Translations under genes and position numbers: made by a program
Origin: Bisgaardia hudsonensis
GTDB lineage: Bacteria > Pseudomonadota > Gammaproteobacteria > Enterobacterales > Pasteurellaceae
Reading direction: 5' to 3'
DNA: 64,000 bases
Assembly (NCBI RefSeq): GCF_004345785.1
Contig: NZ_SLXI01000001.1
Span: 62,001 to 126,000 of the forward strand
Shown here: in pieces, positions 5,430-25,843 of the stretch
How the letters are laid out: each line of letters starts with the position of its first letter
Position numbering within the stretch: position 1 is the first letter of the stretch
The notes under the pieces: model-generated
The model's database searches: none
The model's input: the letters and a program-made list of their open reading frames with translations, nothing else
What the model was told of the DNA's origin: nothing

Positions 5430-8400
5430 ATGGAAAATTCACAATTAAATTATATTTTAGGTTTAGATATAGGTATTGCTTCTGTTGGCTGGGCGGTAGT
5501 TGAAATTGATAAAGAAGAAAATCCCATAGGACTAATTGATGTTGGTGTGAGAACATTTGAAAAAGCTGAAGTTGCTAAAACAGGAGAATCTTTAGCTTTG
5601 GCAAGACGGTTAGCGAGAAGTACTCGTCGTTTAATTCGTCGTCGAGCATTTCGATTGCTAAAGGCAAAACGCTTGTTAAAAAAATATGAAATTCTTACCC
5701 AAGATGATTTTATTTCGTCAAAAGAAATTAAGGGATTACCACATAATCCTTGGGAACTACGTGTTAAAGGACTAACACAAAAGTTATCTCAAAAAGAGTG
5801 GGCTGCCGTTTTATTACATTTATTAAAGCATCGTGGCTATTTATCTCAACGTAAAAATGAAAGTAAAACGGATAATAAGGAGCTTGGTGCTTTGAAAAAA
5901 TGTATCGACCAAAATCATCTACTTTTACAAGATAAAGCATATCGCACCCCTGCGGAGCTTGCACTCAAATATTATTATAAAAAAGATAAGCATATTAGAA
6001 ATCAGCGTGGTGCTTATACACATACTTTTAATCGATTAGATTTATTAGCAGAATTAGAATTATTATTTGAAACTCAACGAAACCTTGGTAATCGCTATAC
6101 ATCAAAAGAATTACAATTAGAATTTTCAGAATTATTAATATGGCAAAAGCCAGCATTATTGGGCGAAGCTATTTTAAAAATGCTAGGAAAATGTACTTTT
6201 GAAACAGCTGAATATAAAGCCGCTAAAAATACTTATAGCGCGGAATATTTTGTATGGTTGACTAAATTAAATAATTTGAGAATTCTTGAAAATGGCTCTG
6301 ATAGAGGAGTTTCAGAAGAAGAAAGAGTCGTATTGCTAAAACAACCCTTTGAAAAAGCAAAACTTACTTATACTCAAGTAAGAAAATTATTAGGGTTATC
6401 AGAAAATGCAATTTTTAAAGGATTAAATTATCGTAAAGAAAATGCAGAAAATACAACGCTAATGGAAATGAAGTCTTGGCATAGTATTCGTAAAGCATTA
6501 GAAAGTAATGGTTTAAAAACAGACTGGGAAGGTTTAAAAACACAACCAGAATTACTTGATAAAATAGGTACCGCTTTTTCTATTTATAAAACGGATAAAG
6601 ATATAAGCCATTATCTACAAAATGATATATCTAAAGATATATTAAATGTTTTATTAGAAAATATTAATTTTGATAAATTTATTCACTTATCCTTAAAAGC
6701 ACTGTATAAAATTTTACCTTTAATGGAAAAAGGTTATCGCTATGATGAAGCTTGTAAGCAAATTTATGGCGATCATTATGGACAAAAAGAACAACAGTTA
6801 GAAAATATTAGAAATCCTGTTGTTTTACGATCTTTATCTCAAGTTAGAAAAGTAGTGAATGCAATTGTGCGTTTATATGGTTCCCCTTGTCGAGTACATA
6901 TTGAAACAGGAAGAGAAGTGGGGAAATCTTATGAAGATCGTTGTGAAATTAAAAAGCGTCAGTTAGATAATCAAGCGGATAAACAAAGAGCGGTCAAAAA
7001 ATTTAAAGAATGGTTCCCTAATTTTGTAGGTGAGCCTAAATCACAAGATATTTTAAAAATGCGTTTATATGAACAGCAGCATGGTAAATGCTTATATTCA
7101 GGTAAGCCTATCAAACATTTAGATCGTTTATTAGAAAAAGGATATGTTGAAATTGATCATGCATTACCATTTTCTCGAACTTGGGATAATAGCTTTAATA
7201 ATAAAGTATTAGTATTAGCTGCAGAAAATCAGAATAAAGGCAATAAAACCCCTTATGAATTTTTTAATGGAAAAGAAAATTCAAAAACTTGGAAAAATTT
7301 TACCGCACTTGTATTAGGAAGTGGTTTTTCTTACGCTAAAAAACAAAAAATTCTAACCCAGAAATTAGATGAAAAAGGATTTAGAGAGCGTAATTTAAAC
7401 GATACAAGATATATAGCCAGTTTTTTGTGTAACTTTATTGAAAATAATACGCACTTAATTGGTCAAGGTAAAAAACGTGTATTTGCTTCAAATGGGAGTA
7501 TCACTGCATTTTTGCGTCATTGTTGGGGAATTCATAAAGAAAGAGTAGCCAATGACCGCCACCATGCGATTGATGCTATTGTGGTTGCTTGTTCTACGGT
7601 TTCTATGCAACAAAAAATTACTAATTTTGTGCGTTACAAAGAGATGAATTTATCTAAGGGGGAAATTATAGATAAAGAAACAGGAGAAATTCAGCAAGTT
7701 TATTTCCCTGAACCTTGGCAATTTTTCAGAAAAGAAGTTGAAATTAGAGTATTTAGTGATAATCCACAAGAGGATCTAGTTATTCAACTACCAGATAGAC
7801 CACAAGCGAATCATCAATTTGTGCAACCTTTATTTGTTTCTCGAGCCCCGACTAGAAAAATGAGCGGTCAAGGACATAAAGACACAGTGAAATCAGCAAA
7901 ACGTATAGCTGAAAATATCAGTGTAATCAGAGTGCCTTTAACTCAATTGAAGTTAGAGGAGCTCGAATGTATGGTAAATAGGGAAAGGGAGCCAGAATTG
8001 CATGAAGCTTTAAAAACTCGTTTAGAAGCATTTAATAATGATCCTGCGAAGGCTTTTGATCCTAAAGAAAGACCTTTTTATAAGAAAGGTGGACAGCAGG
8101 TTAAAGCTGTAAGAGTTGAGAAACTGCAAAAAACAGGGGTATTGGTTTATAATAAAACAGGGGTTGCTGATAATGGAGCAATGGTTAGAGTAGATGTCTT
8201 TATTAAAAAAGGAAAATATTTTTTAGTGCCTGTCTATGCTTGGCAAGTGGCTAAAGGGATATTGCCAAATCGAGCCGTTGTTAAAAATAAAGATGAGTCA
8301 GACTGGGAAATTATGGATGAAACGGCTATATTCCAGTTTTCCATGTATCCTAATGATTTAGTAGAAGTTAAAACAAAGAAAGGAGTAGTGAAGGGGTATT

Positions 8401-8591
8401 ATGTAAGTATGGGAAGAGCTAATGGAACCATTAATATTAGGGAGCATGATTTAGATAAAACAAAGGGGAAAGAGGGGATACACCAAAGTATTGGTGTTAA
8501 ATTAGCTATTTCATTTAAAAAATACCAAATAGATGTATTGGGAAAAAATATATTCTTATGTAAAACTTCAAAATACCGTTCTATTAATTAA
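5430..8591 (+). CDS. cas9: Cas9 endonuclease, type II-C
   Basis: This 1053-residue RNA-guided nuclease cuts DNA matched by crRNA:tracrRNA. RuvC-I is [15 protein letters not shown] with D13. The bridge helix is the Arg-rich stretch around residues 56-85. RuvC-II has E492 in [16 protein letters not shown] carries IDHALPFSR with D576/H577 and [11 protein letters not shown]. RuvC-III has [13 protein letters not shown] with H712/D715. All catalytic residues are present, so the enzyme looks intact. The length and N-terminus resemble Neisseria (1082 aa) and Haemophilus parainfluenzae Cas9 proteins. There is no csn2 or cas4, which defines subtype II-C. The C-terminal ~200 residues should hold the PAM-reading domain. 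The gene contains an uptake sequence at 7302-7310, so it has resided in, or evolved within, this clade. The start follows a GGGG-rich ribosome-binding site. Confidence 0.98.
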
Positions 8592-8595
8592 TATT

Positions 8596-8626
8596 ATCCC
8601 TGCTAGTTATAGCAGGGATTTTTTAT
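8596..8626 (+). terminator. Terminator between cas9 and cas1
   Basis: A perfect 9-bp stem, ATCCCTGCT at 8596-8604 with AGCAGGGAT at 8611-8619, is followed by TTTTTT. It begins five bases after the cas9 stop and would limit read-through into cas1-cas2. Confidence 0.85.
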
Positions 8627-8646
8627 TGAAAATATAAGGGGAAAGA

Positions 8647-9561
8647 ATGAGTTGGCGAAGTCTAATTATTAGTAAACCTGGAAAGCTATCTCTGAGGCAA
8701 CAACAGTTATTTATTCAGCAAGAAGTGAATGAGTTTACAGTACCACTAGAGGATATAGCTGTCATTGTGGTGGAAAGCAAAGAAATTATTATTACGGCTC
8801 CATTACTTTCAGCTTTAGGAATATATGGAATTACCTTATTAACCTGTGATGAACAATTTCTACCTTGTGGGCAATGGTTGCCATTCTCACAATATTACCG
8901 TCAATTAAAAACCTTGAAATTACAGCTTGAAGCGACAAAGCCGCAAAAGAAACAACTTTGGCAAAAAATTATTCAACAAAAAATTCGTAATCAAGCATTT
9001 GTGTTAGCTCAGTCAAAATATCCGAAAGAATCCCAAAAACTATTAAATATGGCTGATAGAGTGAAATCAGGAGATAAAGATAATTTGGAAGCTCAAGCCG
9101 CTCAAATTTATTTTCAAACTGCTTTTGGAGCTGATTTTAGACGTTGGCAAGAAAACCATATTAATGCACATTTAAACTATGCTTATACCATATTACGTTC
9201 AGCAGTTGCTAGGGCATTAGTACAATATGGTTGGTTGCCTTATTTGGGGTTATTTCATCGAAGTGAACTGAATGCATTTAATTTAGCTGATGATTTTATT
9301 GAACCTTTTCGTCCTTTAGTTGATTTGCAAGTATGGAAATTATGGCAAGAAGGAAAAATTAGTAATGGACTACAACCTAAGACTAAACAATCGCTAGTAG
9401 CATTACTCCATTATCAAATGCAATTTCAAGGACAAACATTTACTGTACTTGCTTCAATTGATCGATGTGTTGGTTCTTTACAAAATGCATTTATTAATAA
9501 AAATGCTAATTTGCTTAAATTACCCGAAATGTTACCACTTAAGGAACATTTATATGAGTGA
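8647..9561 (+). CDS. cas1: Cas1 integrase, type II
   Basis: Cas1 is the catalytic subunit of the Cas1-Cas2 complex that inserts new spacers. The 304-residue protein has the type II Cas1 N-terminus ([21 protein letters not shown]). It has the helical C-terminal domain with the metal-binding Glu in the [14 protein letters not shown] region, the His in [18 protein letters not shown], and the following EPFRPLVD acids. No residues look missing. It has a ribosome-binding site (AAGGGGAAAG) and overlaps cas2 by 8 bp, so the two are translationally coupled. The terminator upstream suggests that cas1-cas2 are expressed at a lower level than cas9 or from their own promoter. Confidence 0.97.
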
Positions 9562-9880
9562 GGCTAAATTTATGCGATTAATCGTTTTTTTCGATCTACC
9601 TGTTACAACCGTCGCTAAGCGCAAAGCTGCAAATCGTTTTCGTCATTTTTTAATTAAAGATGGTTATCAAATGTTACAACTTTCCGTTTATTGCCGAATC
9701 GTTAGAGGAAGAGATGCTTTAGAAAAACATAATAAACGTTTACAAGAGAATTTACCCGAAGAAGGATCTATACGTTGTTTAGAAGTAACAGAAAAACAGT
9801 TTGCAAGTATGCATATTTTACTTGGAAAATTAAAAATTCAAGAAAAGAAAGTCAACACAAATCAAATGCTACTTTTTTAA
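9554..9880 (+). CDS. cas2: Cas2, structural partner of Cas1
   Basis: This is a 108-residue Cas2 with the ferredoxin-like fold signature [11 protein letters not shown] near the N-terminus and the conserved Asp of FFDLP. The [21 protein letters not shown] segment is typical of type II-C Cas2. It dimerises between two Cas1 dimers during spacer acquisition. I chose the ATG at 9554, which overlaps the cas1 stop by 8 bp. An upstream in-frame extension to 9449 would run inside cas1 in another frame and lacks Cas2-like sequence. The gene ends 244 bp before the first CRISPR repeat. Confidence 0.96.
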
Positions 9881-10124
9881 ATTTTTTAATGTTTTTATCT
9901 ATATCTACTATACATAAAAATTTTTTCTGTTTGCTTGTTTTATATACAGAGATAATAATAAAAAACAAGTCTTTTTAGAAAAATAAGATAATTTTATCTA
10001 TATTATCGTTCTTTTTTTCCTTCAAAAAATCAGAAAAAAATATAAAAAAATGATAGAAAGCAAAGAAATTTTTTTATAATTAAAATCGTTGAAAGCCCTT
10101 GATATAAGGGCTTTCACAAGGGCT
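9881..10124. promoter_or_regulatory. AT-rich cas2-CRISPR intergenic region, candidate leader/integration side
   Basis: This non-coding stretch of 244 bp is rich in A and T tracts and separates cas2 from repeat 1. The opposite array end carries the broken repeat, and degenerate repeats usually mark the oldest end. This side is therefore the probable site of new spacer insertion. It is also downstream of the crRNA transcripts, which run on the minus strand. No open frame of note is seen. Confidence 0.55.
10091..10115 (-). terminator. Inverted repeat at the cas2-side array edge, possible crRNA terminator
   Basis: A perfect 10-bp stem, GAAAGCCCTT at 10091-10100 with AAGGGCTTTC at 10106-10115 and a GATAT loop, sits nine bases before repeat 1. 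On the minus strand, the direction of crRNA transcription, it is followed by AACGATTTTAATT. This could end the last crRNA transcript or mark the leader. Confidence 0.5.
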
Positions 10125-12661
10125 ATTGTAGCACAGCGAAATGAGAAAGGGAGCTACAACTATCGTTATCAGTGCCTCCACTGCTACTTTATTGTAGCAC
10201 AGCGAAATGAGAAAGGGAGCTACAACGCAAGAGGCTTGTGTAGAGATTATGAGTAAATTGTAGCACAGCGAAATGAGAAAGGGAGCTACAACAAAGCCTG
10301 ATGACACCGCTCAAATATTACAATTGTAGCACAGCGAAATGAGAAAGGGAGCTACAACAATAAAGCCTAGATATTTACGGTATCTAGGATTGTAGCACAG
10401 CGAAATGAGAAAGGGAGCTACAACTATCTTTGGTTATTGGCATAAAAATTAAGTATTGTAGCACAGCGAAATGAGAAAGGGAGCTACAACTAACAGTTTC
10501 TTCTTGTACTTTTTTCCACGATTGTAGCACAGCGAAATGAGAAAGGGAGCTACAACACGATCAAGAATTGTGAAATTTCTGAATTAATTGTAGCACAGCG
10601 AAATGAGAAAGGGAGCTACAACTCTGAAACATATAAGCGTAATGTTTCTCCAATTGTAGCACAGCGAAATGAGAAAGGGAGCTACAACAGAAGTTGGAAG
10701 CGATGAGATTTGAATTGAATTGTAGCACAGCGAAATGAGAAAGGGAGCTACAACCCACAAGCGATCGCTATGTGCTCTACCATTATTGTAGCACAGCGAA
10801 ATGAGAAAGGGAGCTACAACCATCACATTGCCCTGCAACTAAACGTCTTAATTGTAGCACAGCGAAATGAGAAAGGGAGCTACAACGGTTATATATGCGT
10901 TAAAAATGGGTTAAATATTGTAGCACAGCGAAATGAGAAAGGGAGCTACAACGGCAGGGCTTGGCATATAAATGGCAAGCAAATTGTAGCACAGCGAAAT
11001 GAGAAAGGGAGCTACAACAAGCACCATTTGTTATAACAGTATTATAATATTGTAGCACAGCGAAATGAGAAAGGGAGCTACAACATTTTATGCCCCTTAT
11101 TTTTTAGTTTCTGTATTGTAGCACAGCGAAATGAGAAAGGGAGCTACAACAAATCATCTGGTACAGTTTGACCTGCAATAATTGTAGCACAGCGAAATGA
11201 GAAAGGGAGCTACAACCTATCATTGAGTCATCTTCAATAATCTCTGATTGTAGCACAGCGAAATGAGAAAGGGAGCTACAACAAACTAGCTAACCGCTTT
11301 GAAATATCAGACATTGTAGCACAGCGAAATGAGAAAGGGAGCTACAACCGAGGATTAAATGGTTTGGTAATATAATCAATTGTAGCACAGCGAAATGAGA
11401 AAGGGAGCTACAACTACCATTACCGCCACTGCGCGAACAAGCGCATTGTAGCACAGCGAAATGAGAAAGGGAGCTACAACATAGAAATATAGCAAGATGG
11501 ATAGGATATAATTGTAGCACAGCGAAATGAGAAAGGGAGCTACAACTCAATCTCTGATACTGGGTTTACTACAGGGATTGTAGCACAGCGAAATGAGAAA
11601 GGGAGCTACAACCTTACTAATTTTCGTAGAGATATTGAAACAATTGTAGCACAGCGAAATGAGAAAGGGAGCTACAACTTCTAATATAGCCAATCCTTGT
11701 TCAATATGATTGTAGCACAGCGAAATGAGAAAGGGAGCTACAACCATACACCATTGACAATACCTGTGCCTGTTATTGTAGCACAGCGAAATGAGAAAGG
11801 GAGCTACAACGCGTTTCGTCAAGCTCTTCAGAGAAAAAATATTGTAGCACAGCGAAATGAGAAAGGGAGCTACAACTTTCGGCTTGTAATGGTGATTGAG
11901 ATAACTATTGTAGCACAGCGAAATGAGAAAGGGAGCTACAACTGATGAGTAATTGGGTAGATTGCCTCTAAGATTGTAGCACAGCGAAATGAGAAAGGGA
12001 GCTACAACGTATTATCTGGGTTTGATGTTTCTCGTGTTATTGTAGCACAGCGAAATGAGAAAGGGAGCTACAACTGCAACAAGCACTTGTTGAAATGAAT
12101 ATTGATTGTAGCACAGCGAAATGAGAAAGGGAGCTACAACTCTTGTAAATCATCATTACCAAGACGTCCTATTGTAGCACAGCGAAATGAGAAAGGGAGC
12201 TACAACACCACCAACTGTTTTTTGTAGCTCTTTTAAATTGTAGCACAGCGAAATGAGAAAGGGAGCTACAACCCTGTCATCCACTTGTTTGCAGCAGCTC
12301 TGATTGTAGCACAGCGAAATGAGAAAGGGAGCTACAACGCTCATTTTAATCAAGTAACTAAATTTGAGATTGTAGCACAGCGAAATGAGAAAGGGAGCTA
12401 CAACATTCCCGCTTACGCTAAAAAAACAGGAATGATTGTAGCACAGCGAAATGAGAAAGGGAGCTACAACACGAAGCAATTAAATTAATTTATAAAATAA
12501 ATTGTAGCACAGCGAAATGAGAAAGGGAGCTACAACATACTCATTTAAAATATGCAACCTTGGATAATTGTAGCACAGCGAAATGAGAAAGGGAGCTACA
12601 ACTAGAAACGTTGAATAAGAGATTTTATATTGATTGTAGCACAGCGAAATGAGAAAGGGAG
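10125..12661 (-). CRISPR. Type II-C CRISPR array: 38 intact repeats, 38 spacers, one truncated repeat
   Basis: Repeats of 36 bp start at 10125 and recur at exactly 66-bp intervals through 12567. A 39th copy at 12633 is cut after 29 bases at 12661. All 38 complete repeats appear identical, and every spacer is 30 bp. The anti-repeat places crRNAs on the minus strand, where the repeat begins GTTGTAGCTCCC and ends GCTGTGCTACAAT. That orientation matches the Neisseria type II-C repeat. The repeat's last nine bases, TGCTACAAT, form an extended -10 promoter element, as reported for N. meningitidis, where each repeat starts its own crRNA. Spacer 16 matches the sulfatase gene in this window. Several other spacers have open, phage-like coding potential. 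Open frames running through the array on either strand are artefacts of the repeat. Confidence 0.99.
11151..11180 (-). other. Self-matching CRISPR spacer (spacer 16)
   Basis: The reverse complement of this spacer starts TATTGCAGGTCAAACTG and is identical over all 30 bases to 51991-52020 inside the sulfatase gene. In crRNA orientation the spacer is followed by the repeat, so the PAM would be read just downstream of 52020. Confidence 0.97.
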
Positions 12662-12865
12662 ACTGTCAGATCGAGTTTGACCTTCTACATCTAAATCCTT
12701 CCATTTTTCACCCGTTGGCGAGCGTTCATTATCAAAAGCCTCTTCTGACTCTTCTCGTAAAACATTAGCTATTTTTCGAGAAATATCTGTACCACTCATC
12801 ACTTTTCTTAAGTGCGTGATTTTTCTGATAACGTCTTCATCTTCAAATTTGAATTCTAAAATCAT
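12662..12865 (-). pseudogene. Mu gpG-like phage virion morphogenesis gene, 3' end lost into a CRISPR repeat
   Basis: About 68 residues from the ATG at 12865 resemble the N-terminal half of the phage virion morphogenesis family (Mu gpG; PF05069). The start is MILEFKFEDED, followed by a helical DISRKIANVLREESEEAF segment and the family-typical RSPTGEKWKDL. Homology stops where the sequence runs into the truncated CRISPR repeat (junction about 12661/12662). The remaining ~18 codons read antisense through the repeat and spacer 38. An AAAAGGAAAAG ribosome-binding site is present. In Mu-like phages gpG follows gpF, as here. The gene is a remnant and is not expected to be functional. Confidence 0.75.
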
Positions 12866-12910
12866 TTGACTTTTCCTTTTGGATGATTTTATACTGTTAG
12901 AAAGAAGTAA

Positions 12911-12975
12911 ATTCGTGTCAGTTAATGGTAAACTAACAAGAAATTGTCACTGTAGGTTCAACCCCTACCACGAAT
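12911..12975 (+). ncRNA. tRNA-like element lacking an anticodon loop (element A)
   Basis: A 65-nt cloverleaf-like fold is visible. The acceptor stem is ATTCGTG (12911-12917) with CACGAAT (12969-12975), extendable to 10 bp. The D arm is AGTT-AATGGTA-AACT (12920-12934), and a 4-nt variable loop CACT precedes the T arm GTAGG-TTCAACC-CCTAC (12952-12968). In place of a 17-nt anticodon arm there is ACAA-GAAA-TTGT (12936-12947), a 4-bp stem with a GNRA tetraloop. It cannot decode a codon as drawn. No CCA is encoded. A terminator on the same strand follows at 12982, which supports plus-strand transcription. It lies in the gap between phage gpF- and gpG-type genes, on the opposite strand. A second copy lies at 14456-14535. 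Confidence 0.65.
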
Positions 12976-12981
12976 TTAACA

Positions 12982-13010
12982 GCGGGATAGTTTATCTATC
13001 CCGTTTGTTT
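12982..13010 (+). terminator. Terminator after tRNA-like element A
   Basis: CGGGATAG (12983-12990) pairs perfectly with CTATCCCG (12996-13003), followed by TTTGTTTT on the plus strand. The minus-strand side has no T run, so it appears to serve the plus-strand tRNA-like RNA rather than the phage gene. Confidence 0.75.
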
Positions 13011-14308
13011 TACGGCTCACCCTCTAATACTTTATAATTTTCACCTGATATTTCAGCAAGAACACTTTTATAATTTAATAATTTATAAGCATTAATGACA
13101 ACATCAAGCTTTTCTTTTGGTTTTAATTTTTCTTTACCTGAAACATCTACTAACACTTTTATTGTTTTATCTTTATTGAAATAAATTAGAGATCCTTTTC
13201 TATCCCAAACCACTAGACTAGGAGTTGCTATAATACGTGAAATACTTGCATATTCATTATCATCAAGCCTAACACCACCTGTGTGATGTTTCAGACTATT
13301 TGCATGAGCTAAACGCTTTTCACTCATCACAAGTACACGTTGAGATAATTCTTGCCCAACAATTTGATTAACAGCTTGAGCAATATTTTCGGATACAAAC
13401 CCAGCCGTAATATAACGATTACTTGCTCCTTGTTTGCCTAAATTTTCTTTTACCCACTTTTCAAAATATTGGTGTCTTAGTTCGCTATTATTAATCGCTT
13501 GAATGACTTCTTGACGTAGTTGTCTATTTTGAATTTGTTGTAATTTACGAATAATAGCAATATCAGAGCCTACTGCAGATTTACCAACATTATAATTCCA
13601 ACCCGGACCCGTTTTAATTGTGCCTTTATCTGTTGTGAAGCGACTTACTTTTGCATGGGTTTCTTCACCCGTTGATTTATCAACACCAGCAAGTTCCCAA
13701 TCTGTTTTAATGTTACCCTCGCTTTTACTTACTTTTAAGCCTTGTTGTTTTAGTCTGAATTCACTTAATGCACGGACACGACAACGATAGCCCCAGTCAT
13801 TAGGCGGATACATCGTATCCCAGATAGGATCATCATAACGATACATTTTACAGTGTAACGCTAAATGACTTGCACGAGTGCGACTATCACGCACGGCAAC
13901 ATATTGCCAGTAGGGTTGCTCATCGACATTTTCCATTTGATGTGCATAACGTCCGACGTGATAAGCCGTGATTTTATTTGTTCTTAAAATTGTTCGTAAA
14001 CGACGAGGTGAGTCAAGTTGTACTTGTTCTGCATTGCCTTTGCTATCAATTACAATTTGTTTTCCCCACCAACTTAAACGCTGTAATTCAGGCTTAAGAT
14101 TTTTGATAAATTCCCGCTCTGATGTGCCATTCTCTATTGCACTTACTGTTGCCTCTCGAATAGTTTCTAATATATCAGCACGGGTTACTTTAGCGACGGT
14201 AAACGCTTTAACATGAGCTTCTTCTAGCTGTTCTTGCCAGTTCCACGTAATGTTGTAACCTTTGGCTTTTAAATAATCAACAGCTAGCTTTGGCGCAAGT
14301 CGTAACAT
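13010..14308 (-). CDS. Mu gpF-like phage head morphogenesis (MuF) protein with a nuclease-like C-terminus
   Basis: From the ATG at 14308 this reads 432 residues beginning MLRLAPKLAVDYLKAKG. The N-terminal and middle parts match Mu gpF/minor head proteins (PF04233): LETIREATVSAIENG, and the core RTRASHLALHCKMYR followed by PIWDTMYPPNDWGYRCR near residue 200. Such proteins are packaged with phage DNA at the portal. The C-terminal ~110 residues differ from Mu gpF: EKRLAHANSLKHHTGG (H335, H341, H342), then a strand-rich segment with IATPSLVVWDRKGSLIYF. That pattern resembles the PBECR (Barnase-EndoU-colicin E5/D-RelE-like) nuclease domains often fused to MuF proteins. The frame is open upstream to 14425, but that extension crosses a CRISPR-repeat-like sequence and looks non-native. 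The gene may be intact, but the phage around it is not. Confidence 0.7.
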   Translation of the reverse strand: MLRLAPKLAVDYLKAKGYNITWNWQEQLEEAHVKAFTVAKVTRADILETIREATVSAIENGTSEREFIKNLKPELQRLSWWGKQIVIDSKGNAEQVQLDSPRRLRTILRTNKITAYHVGRYAHQMENVDEQPYWQYVAVRDSRTRASHLALHCKMYRYDDPIWDTMYPPNDWGYRCRVRALSEFRLKQQGLKVSKSEGNIKTDWELAGVDKSTGEETHAKVSRFTTDKGTIKTGPGWNYNVGKSAVGSDIAIIRKLQQIQNRQLRQEVIQAINNSELRHQYFEKWVKENLGKQGASNRYITAGFVSENIAQAVNQIVGQELSQRVLVMSEKRLAHANSLKHHTGGVRLDDNEYASISRIIATPSLVVWDRKGSLIYFNKDKTIKVLVDVSGKEKLKPKEKLDVVINAYKLLNYKSVLAEISGENYKVLEGEP

Positions 14309-14337
14309 ATAACCATGTCGATTTATTGGAGTTCTGA

Positions 14338-14356
14338 GAAATGGAAAAGGAGCTAC
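14338..14356 (+). repeat. Degenerate CRISPR-repeat-like stretch at the far edge of the phage fragment
   Basis: GAAATGGAAAAGGAGCTAC aligns to the array repeat core GAAATGAGAAAGGGAGCTAC with one deletion and one mismatch (18 of 20), in the same orientation as the array. It lies just upstream of the recognisable gpF start. It may be a decayed repeat, but chance similarity in A/G-rich DNA cannot be excluded. Confidence 0.4.
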
Positions 14357-14455
14357 GGGTAACTTGATGTAATAATCAACGCTTATAAAATTAATTTTGA
14401 ACAGGATATAGAGAATGTAATTCAAGGGGGATTATGTGGTTATTCAAGTGAGTAA

Positions 14456-14535
14456 GTGTTACGGTGGGAGTTGAACCCACATACCCATTTGCCCTTTCGG
14501 GGTATGGCGACTTTACCATTAAGCGTACGTAACAC
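14456..14535 (-). ncRNA. tRNA-like element lacking a normal anticodon loop (element B)
   Basis: On the minus strand the acceptor stem GTGTTACG (14535-14528) pairs with CGTAACAC (14463-14456). The D arm is GCTT-AATGGTA-AAGT (14524-14510), with the same seven-base loop as element A. The T arm is GTGGG-TTCAACT-CCCAC (14480-14464). The anticodon-arm position holds an enlarged hairpin: CCAT and ATGG enclose CCC and GGG around a CGAAA loop, leaving a 4-nt variable loop GTAT. Stems differ in sequence from element A but remain paired, which is covariation. There is no encoded CCA. It lies 43 bp upstream of, and divergent from, a second gpG-type start at 14579. Confidence 0.62.
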
Positions 14536-14578
14536 TATTACATAGTTAAAATTTAATCTTATTTTTTAGAGATGTCAA

Positions 14579-14719
14579 ATGACTTTAGAATTTAAGTTTG
14601 AAGATGAGGCAGAGAATATTGTTGGTAATAAACGCTCTCTGACTAGTGAAAGAGGAGAAATTTTTGGAATGGTTGGTATTGCTAAGAAATATGGACAGAG
14701 TCATATGTTTGGTACCTAA
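14579..14719 (+). pseudogene. Second gpG-type start, fused to unrelated sequence (46 codons)
   Basis: The frame begins MTLEFKFEDE. It shares 31 of 34 bases with the start region of the truncated gpG gene at 12865, including the GTCAAATGA just upstream, but lies on the other strand. After residue 10 the sequence diverges (AENIVGNKRSLTSERGEIFG) and stops at 14719. I recognise no function for the rest. Together with tRNA-like element B it looks like an inverted second copy of the same phage junction, broken shortly after the gene start. It may instead be a short gene in its own right, but no clear ribosome-binding site is seen. Confidence 0.45.
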
Positions 14720-25715: not shown

Positions 25716-25721
25716 GCAACT

Positions 25722-25843
25722 GTTTGTTAGGTATTGCGGTTAAAAATGTTTAGTTTCATTTTTAGGGTACTCCAAACAGTAGAGTAGAAAGTAAATTCGT
25801 TAGGGTATTTAAAAAGCTGGAGTTTAAACTTCAGCTTTTTTTT
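25722..25843 (+). ncRNA. Candidate iron-responsive small RNA between pmbA and hpt
   Basis: This is a non-coding stretch of about 122 nt with its own promoter (above) and a strong rho-independent terminator: AAGCTGGAGT at 25813-25822 pairs with ACTTCAGCTT, then T9. I see no open frame of useful length with a ribosome-binding site. Fur-regulated sRNAs exist in Pasteurellaceae (HrrF in H. influenzae, JA01-JA04 in Aggregatibacter) and resemble RyhB in role. Whether this is the counterpart of one of them cannot be judged without alignment. The exact 5' end is an estimate from the -10 box. Confidence 0.55.

Follow-up and report, generated by a model that had tools for sequence, protein, structure and literature searches.

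Phage remnants and antisense elements at the locus

What is left of a Mu-like phage in the window (the whole 64,000-nucleotide stretch of Bisgaardia hudsonensis DNA analysed here) is a gpF gene, two stumps of gpG and two RNA elements, bordered by a CRISPR array on one side and by apparently ordinary chromosomal genes on the other (Table 1). The N terminus of this gpF is fused or altered. Both elements are antisense to the phage late operon and lie between Mu-like gpF and gpG. The −35 box of the predicted promoter of element 1 adjoins the gpG start codon, and the terminator of this element is strong and ends at the gpF stop. Both RNAs, together with their promoter-like sites, look intact at the sequence level despite the loss of the surrounding phage genes.

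Table 1. Phage remnants and RNA features in the window
Feature	Positions	Strand	Details	Basis
gpF (MuF minor head protein) remnant	13010-14344	-	C-terminal BECR-like RNase domain, motif LAHANSLKHH kept	AlphaFold2 model; fold search
Truncated gpG (Phage_tail_S)	12602-12865	-	cut by the CRISPR array	
Tail of a second gpF	14363-14455	+	last ~30 codons, sole remainder of that gene	translation compared with the gpF tail of locus L001
Second gpG, 5' end	14579-14719	+	stop codon after ~46 codons	sequence
tRNA-like antisense RNA element 1	12911-12975	+	cloverleaf, short arm with GAAA cap	
tRNA-like antisense RNA element 2	14457-14534	-	orphan: gpF gone save a tail	
Predicted sigma-70 promoter of element 1	12866-12895	+	TTGACT (12866-12871), 18 nt, TATACT (12890-12895)	sequence; antisense promoter bias over ~224 gaps
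Predicted intrinsic terminator of element 1	12983-13011	+	CGGGATAG-TTTAT-CTATCCCG then TTTGTTTT	sequence; terminators 84 antisense vs 0 sense
Predicted promoter of element 2	14550-14578	-	TTGACA (14578-14573), 17 nt, TAAATT (14555-14550)	sequence

The neighbouring CRISPR-Cas locus (5430-12602) contains putative Cas9-, Cas1- and Cas2-like ORFs, named by reading, and a long repeat array that corresponds to Rfam CRISPR-DR34, the last repeat of which extends into the gpG stump. Elsewhere in the window, Rfam places the iron-responsive small RNA HrrF at 25720-25842, an RNA indicative of a Pasteurellaceae host.

Fold and conservation of the tRNA-like elements

A sequence-only reading of this DNA had described two tRNA-like elements in which a GAAA-capped hairpin takes the place of the anticodon arm, and both are real, with fold and location as claimed. 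In element 1, the acceptor stem ATTCGTG/CACGAAT is paired at 7/7 positions, the D arm is AGTT-AATGGTA-AACT, the T arm is GTAGG-TTCAACC-CCTAC and the anticodon-arm site holds ACAA-GAAA-TTGT. The corresponding parts of element 2 are TGTTACG/CGTAACA, GCTT-AATGGTA-AAGT, GTGGG-TTCAACT-CCCAC and an interrupted hairpin with the tip CCC-GAAA-GGG. The D loop AATGGTA and T loop TTCAAC are common to both, as had been noted, and so are the four-nucleotide variable loop after the substitute arm (CACT in element 1, GTAT in element 2) and the position about 45 bp from an opposing gpG start, which is 45 nt for the start at 12865 (- strand) and 44 nt for that at 14579 (+ strand). Each element has the tRNA elbow, with GGTA in the D loop and TTCRA in the T loop.

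Pasteurella phage Pmp9 carries a copy of element 2 that is 89% identical by BLASTN; the two copies differ by a compensated change of an acceptor pair and in the tetraloop, GAAA versus GCAA. For element 1, BLASTN against phages returned chance-level matches only. Taken alone, element 1 folds barely better than its shuffles (z -1.05), and the opposite (sense) strand of its locus gives the more stable fold. ARAGORN called neither window element as a tRNA; the Rfam tRNA model (RF00005) scores element 2 at 33.7 bits (cut-off, 29) and does not list element 1 at E<=10.

The claim that the stems have diverged yet stay paired holds well beyond the two copies. In a plain MAFFT alignment of 13 elements (A7), 89.9% of the stem cells pair, against 63.9% after shuffling and 40-49% when the alignment is slid, and covariation scores 0.739, compared with 0.220 after shuffling (0/500 shuffles as high) and 0.12-0.18 after sliding. 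Among 19 non-redundant relatives, 276 of 285 stem cells are paired (shuffled mean 182, maximum 202) and 90 cells show double changes (shuffled mean 23, maximum 38). Since the parser itself asks for pairing, shuffling of whole gaps is the fairer test: in 3600 dinucleotide shuffles made from 18 gaps the cloverleaf score never came up to 25, and all 18 real gaps scored 25-28.

These homologues keep their pairing and, in the listed set, have no 7-nt anticodon loop on a 5-bp stem, which supports the proposal of a selected, non-decoding tRNA-like RNA; a normal 7-nt loop, named beforehand as the sign of simple decay, was seen in none of the listed window-type elements, so these are not decayed tRNAs. 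CCA stands at the acceptor end of 2 of 32 elements. It is true that element 2 and one related locus (L023, the sole match, at 53.4 bits to tRNA and of window type, in an Rfam scan of 13 related loci) exceed the Rfam tRNA threshold, as tRNA genes picked up by phages and then decayed might. Such an origin is practically ruled out by the compensatory changes throughout, the fixed antisense place and the lack of anticodon loops in the listed set; furthermore, the other fold types described below have no Rfam match.

A bimodal gap between gpF and gpG

Relatives of gpF were collected from 63 of 140 related genomes, from IMG/VR and from named phages; the genome-contig search gave 5 loci. The 444 loci included 442 with gpF, of which 355 were unique, 319 had a gpG that could be found and 317 were clustered by BLAST single linkage. 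The IMG/VR loci are not a random sample, because the best 80 per scan were taken. A scan for relatives of L059 (Helicobacter) came after the statistics and lies outside these counts.

Among the 319 loci with gpG, the F-G gap of Mu-like phages is bimodal, with 57 gaps shorter than 30 nt, none of 30-60 nt and the rest of at least 60 nt. Long gaps typically hold what appears to be an antisense unit made of a sigma-70-like promoter, a structured RNA and often an intrinsic terminator. Across the ~224 gaps of the three main clusters that measure 60-300 nt, promoter-like scores of at least 10 were found 153 times on the antisense strand and 6 times on the sense strand, and intrinsic terminators 84 times and never, respectively. 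An ordinary spacer is ruled out by the empty 30-60 nt class and by the link to the active site given below. A functional sense-strand RNA is likewise ruled out, by the same terminator bias and by a T-arm pattern found 76 times antisense and never sense (n=102). In gaps longer than 300 nt (L095, L101, L111, L115 and others), additional DNA, possibly an extra gene, lies between the RNA and gpG.

The named phages with a long gap are Pmp9, SuMu, 3927AP2, RcapMu, B3 and the Helicobacter apodemus prophage, with clear RNA folds, by reading, in at least four. In Mu, JBD30, MuM16-1, ST405-OXA48phi1.1 and VW-6B the two genes touch, and the catalytic His is absent wherever the motif was read. Short gpF proteins that lack the C-terminal domain have no long gap in 12 of 13 cases, and the remaining one (L008) is a broken gene. 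The element of locus L396 has no copy in E. coli genomes at blastn sensitivity.

The C-terminal domain of gpF

The N-terminal parts of gpF form one family and the C termini fall into three main clusters. Two of them score well against Pfam (106 bits for the PBECR2 cluster, 49-63 bits for the PBECR3 cluster); the third, which includes the window and phage Mu, gives weak PBECR3/MuF_C scores. Relatives that combine PF04233 (Phage_Mu_F) with a C-terminal PBECR3 (63 bits) or PBECR2 (106 bits) domain have the MuF-toxin architecture, and the window gpF scores 21 bits to PBECR3, under the cut-off of 30. The BECR-RNase active-site pattern, a His or Arg in the first helix and a Thr/Ser near the C terminus, is present, the Thr/Ser having been counted in the PBECR2 group only.

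The AlphaFold2 model of the window domain (205 aa; pLDDT 86.6, pTM 0.83) has as its best solved matches the colicin D tRNase and then HigB, RelE and CdiA toxins, all of them weak (Foldseek E 0.15, Z 3.9). A PBECR3 model (pLDDT 85.5) matches BrnT (Z 6.0), CdiA and RelE-type toxins, with Z 6.8-4.5, and is weak by Foldseek alone. As described in the accessible part of the PBECR study (Iyer 2017, PMC5512222), the active site of these domains consists of a His in the first helix plus a Thr/Ser, with Arg replacing His in one family; the same text calls the domain of Mu gp30 inactive and its orthologues likely RNases. The gpF of SuMu, which is adjoined by an RNA of type C (see below), appears among the proteins identified by mass spectrometry of phage preparations in the part of that report available to us (PMC3447690).

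RNA genes accompany intact predicted active sites

Within the Mu/window cluster, 101 of 102 long-gap loci have the catalytic His and none of the 15 short-gap loci does (Fisher p 5e-18). The Arg and Thr of the PBECR2 cluster follow the same rule, at 70/74 long-gap and 1/19 short-gap loci (Fisher p 2e-14). The positions counted agree with the active site given in the accessible part of PMC5512222. Residues of the fold or scaffold (PxE.W, RRY) are conserved in both states. Close relatives can differ in both traits at once, such as L418 (HADSQKH, gap 128) and L423 (DASSPTS, gap 8), and on trees of the N-terminal part there are seven independent pairs in the same direction and none in the opposite one; for PBECR2 (8 pairs), on average ~6.6 agree, 0 oppose and 1.4 are undecided. 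The exceptions are L422, with no His, a gap of 290 and no recognised RNA, and, in PBECR2, four long-gap loci without Arg+Thr and one short-gap locus with them.

Comparative evidence of this kind establishes both the candidate RNA genes and their tie to an intact predicted active site. The coupling of RNA and gpF nuclease domain is the larger point of this work and was absent from the sequence-only reading. Since the RNA nearly always accompanies an active-looking domain and is missing beside a dead-looking one, it is probably an antidote that protects the producer cell. We consider it likely that the antisense small-RNA genes confer immunity against the C-terminal RNase domain of gpF.

Several RNA architectures, each with its nuclease class

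The RNAs of the F-G gap are a large predicted class with at least three architectures, which track the type of gpF C-terminal domain (PBECR2, PBECR3 or MuF-C-like, all predicted BECR-fold RNases). The PBECR2 cluster has type D, the PBECR3 cluster types C and E, and the Mu/window cluster types A and B.

Type B has the form CGGTGG...TTTCCTACTGGAAA...variable hairpin...CCTGTTCGAATCAGG...CCACCG. In type C, the loop of a GCGAT-loop-ATCGC arm kisses the T loop, and the kissing pairs covary (CTCCC/GGGAG, CTCGA/TCGAG, CTCGG/CCGAG, CTCGC/GCGAG, AGCCG/CGGCT); for 23 distinct D loops, the score with the RNA's own partner was 5.01, against a mean of 4.41 and a maximum of 4.84 in 1000 permutations. Type D finishes with an intrinsic terminator, and the loop of this terminator kisses another loop further upstream, again with covarying pairs (TGGCGG/CCGCCA, TGGCAG/CTGCCA, TGTCGG/CCGACA, ATCACC/GGTGAT, CCATAA/TTATGG and others) and an own score of 4.83 for 47 distinct cases (permutation mean 3.90, maximum 4.21). 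Type E is found at few loci. In type C RNAs with the CTCCC pair (L044, L069, L070 and similar ones), the 3' portion can reach into the end of the gpF reading frame.

The T-arm pattern occurs at 76/102 long-gap loci of the Mu/window cluster, 26 being without it, at 0/93 PBECR2 loci and at 14/78 PBECR3 loci; the type C motif occurs at 57/78 PBECR3 loci and at 0/117 and 2/93 loci of the other clusters. A covariance model (R1), built from 13 elements chiefly from Pasteurellaceae and including both window elements, served for the homologue search that had been suggested along with the first description. Run over 84 loci outside its training set, it gave 27 matches at E<0.01, all antisense in the F-G gap. 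It found 23 of the 26 unique, held-out long-gap loci of the window's nuclease cluster, missing three, and none of 15 short-gap loci. R1 did not match Mu, JBD30 or KP12, nor, at E<0.01, any of the PBECR2 and PBECR3 loci included. Within the window it scores the two elements, both in its training set, at 64.7 and 68.7 bits, and its next matches are four true tRNA-Lys genes at 35-38 bits, which shows how tRNA-like the model is. At L419 and L421, the His is intact and R1 misses an antisense gap RNA of a different, undescribed shape.

Tail and RNA also vary together within clusters. For PBECR3 pairs whose N parts are >85% identical, RNA identity is 0.66 when the tails share <55% (25 pairs) and 0.97 when the tails are similar (39 pairs), and the partial correlation of tail and RNA over the cluster is 0.51, with 0/500 permutations as high. 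Among PBECR2 loci, the RNA is correlated with the N part no less strongly than with the tail (partial 0.31 vs 0.23), and the co-variation could partly be hitch-hiking of neighbouring DNA. Helicobacter prophages share an N part of F (~251 aa) that is 84-94% identical and a common promoter motif, and differ in both the C terminus and the gap sequence.

The match between RNA class and nuclease class bears on the idea that the RNA is a counter-defence device unrelated to gpF, serving as a decoy against RNases or further defences of the host. Phages with tRNAs that counter host anticodon nucleases exist, and the site near gpG does host accessory genes, such as AcrF1 in JBD30; however, a decoy of this kind would predict neither the loss of the RNA along with the catalytic residues of gpF nor the correspondence of RNA and C-terminal classes, and we regard it as highly improbable. 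Immunity to the gpF nuclease, the reading we prefer, would account for both.

Tandem and orphan copies

Tandem double RNAs were found at five loci (L083, L085, L114, L117, L119). Of 17 strong matches in the 140 genomes, three are orphans, with a promoter and with no gpF or gpG within ~2.4 kb; two of these are from the same genus and still have the promoter and the first gpG codons attached, one of the two lying near an integrase-like gene. Orphan and tandem copies form the pattern expected of immunity genes that outlive their toxin. At L446 (2346-2419), an orphan tRNA-like RNA adjoins what reads as a Mu-like head gene and does not lie between gpF and gpG.

The orphans also speak to a simpler role as a cis-antisense regulator, in which the RNA would pair with the F-G mRNA, or its transcription would collide with the late operon, keeping gpF and gpG low much as a type I antitoxin does, the fold being secondary. 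The RNA is indeed fully complementary to the F-G junction and has its own antisense promoter, and a toxic gpF would need control, which would explain the link with the active site as well. Yet a plain antisense RNA has no need of a tRNA elbow, GNRA tips or covarying loop-loop kissing, orphans persist with no gpF or gpG nearby, and the fold class tracks the nuclease class. Regulation in cis is therefore an unlikely main function, and we return to an RNA acting on the nuclease itself.

A proposed model of RNA-based immunity

We infer expression of the RNA, its binding to gpF, neutralisation of the enzyme and a tRNA target, as follows. The RNA would be made constitutively in the lysogen, antisense to the late operon, and once folded would bind the gpF nuclease in trans, by shape, and block it. 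The producing cell would thereby survive the synthesis and packaging of gpF, and lysogens and carriers of orphan copies would be protected against arriving virions that bear this toxin. A tRNA-cutting enzyme is suggested by the colicin-D-like fold together with the tRNA shape of types A and B, and its inhibitor would copy the body of tRNA. The window-type RNA would imitate the acceptor, the D and T arms and the elbow, with a hairpin replacing the anticodon arm. If, as we suppose, the enzyme holds on to the elbow of tRNA and usually makes its cut at another place, such a mimic would be an uncleavable competitive inhibitor, and the tRNA-like members probably act as uncleavable tRNA decoys.

The same genetic linkage to active sites would be expected if the RNA served the gpF RNase as substrate, cofactor or packaged partner, for example by activating or aiming it, and a tRNA shape (L023, 53.4 bits to Rfam tRNA) fits a substrate equally well. 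This we find quite improbable: orphan and tandem copies look like immunity arrays, and with the anticodon arm exchanged for a hairpin, the site that tRNases usually cut is gone.

A wider generalisation seems to us probable, if less securely so than immunity itself: the whole class of virion-delivered MuF-BECR RNases may use RNA, not protein, as its immunity factor, with several unrelated folds (tRNA mimics, kissing-loop cloverleaves, terminator-loop pseudoknots) that would each have co-evolved with one toxin family, swap along with the toxin and persist as orphans in host genomes.

Relation to known systems

MuF toxins, PBECR domains and type III RNA antitoxins are each known separately. Antitoxins of type III consist of short, repeated pseudoknots that precede the toxin gene and share its strand. 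As in ToxIN and CptIN, a structured RNA is proposed here to neutralise an RNase encoded alongside it, direct inhibition being what we infer; in contrast, the F-G RNA is usually single (two in five loci), lies downstream of the toxin gene on the opposite strand with its own promoter, and has a cloverleaf or kissing-loop fold and a BECR-fold virion protein as its partner. Window-type RNAs resemble tRNA (RF00005) in their acceptor, D and T arms and elbow motifs, some scoring above the Rfam threshold, but differ in the missing anticodon arm, the CCA end in only 2/32 and the antisense place in a virion operon. Bacterial Y RNAs (YrlA) carry a tRNA-like module and are comparable as stable non-decoding tRNA mimics; their gene neighbourhood and partner are different, a distinction drawn from descriptions and not from sequence.

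The polymorphic MuF toxins, as presented in the accessible parts of the relevant papers (Jamet 2017, PMC5576092; Bxa, PMC11699363; Apk2), likewise join a MuF head protein to a variable C-terminal effector, with adjacent immunity, modular swaps and orphan immunity genes. The immunity factors described there are proteins, whereas gpF loci have an RNA in that place; the available text of the Bxa paper discusses polyimmunity loci for proteins, and that of Jamet 2017 (PMC5576092) makes no assignment for the C-terminal extensions that MuF proteins of proteobacteria carry. The C-terminal domains of gpF belong or come close to the PBECR domains (PF18810, PF18812, PF18819), for which the accessible part of Iyer 2017 (PMC5512222) mentions no RNA partner. 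Our literature search, with most subscription papers outside its coverage, returned no RNA immunity for MuF proteins and no paper that treats a tRNA-like RNA together with Mu-like phages and Haemophilus.

The proposed immunity would offer a testable answer to the role of the C-terminal extensions in proteobacterial MuF head proteins and to the survival of lysogens, and RNA antitoxins would extend to virion-borne polymorphic toxins. As the only Rfam match among the 13 loci scanned was one window-type element, the F-G RNAs appear to be a set of undescribed RNA families and would supply many natural candidate inhibitors of BECR RNases, with tRNA mimics among them.
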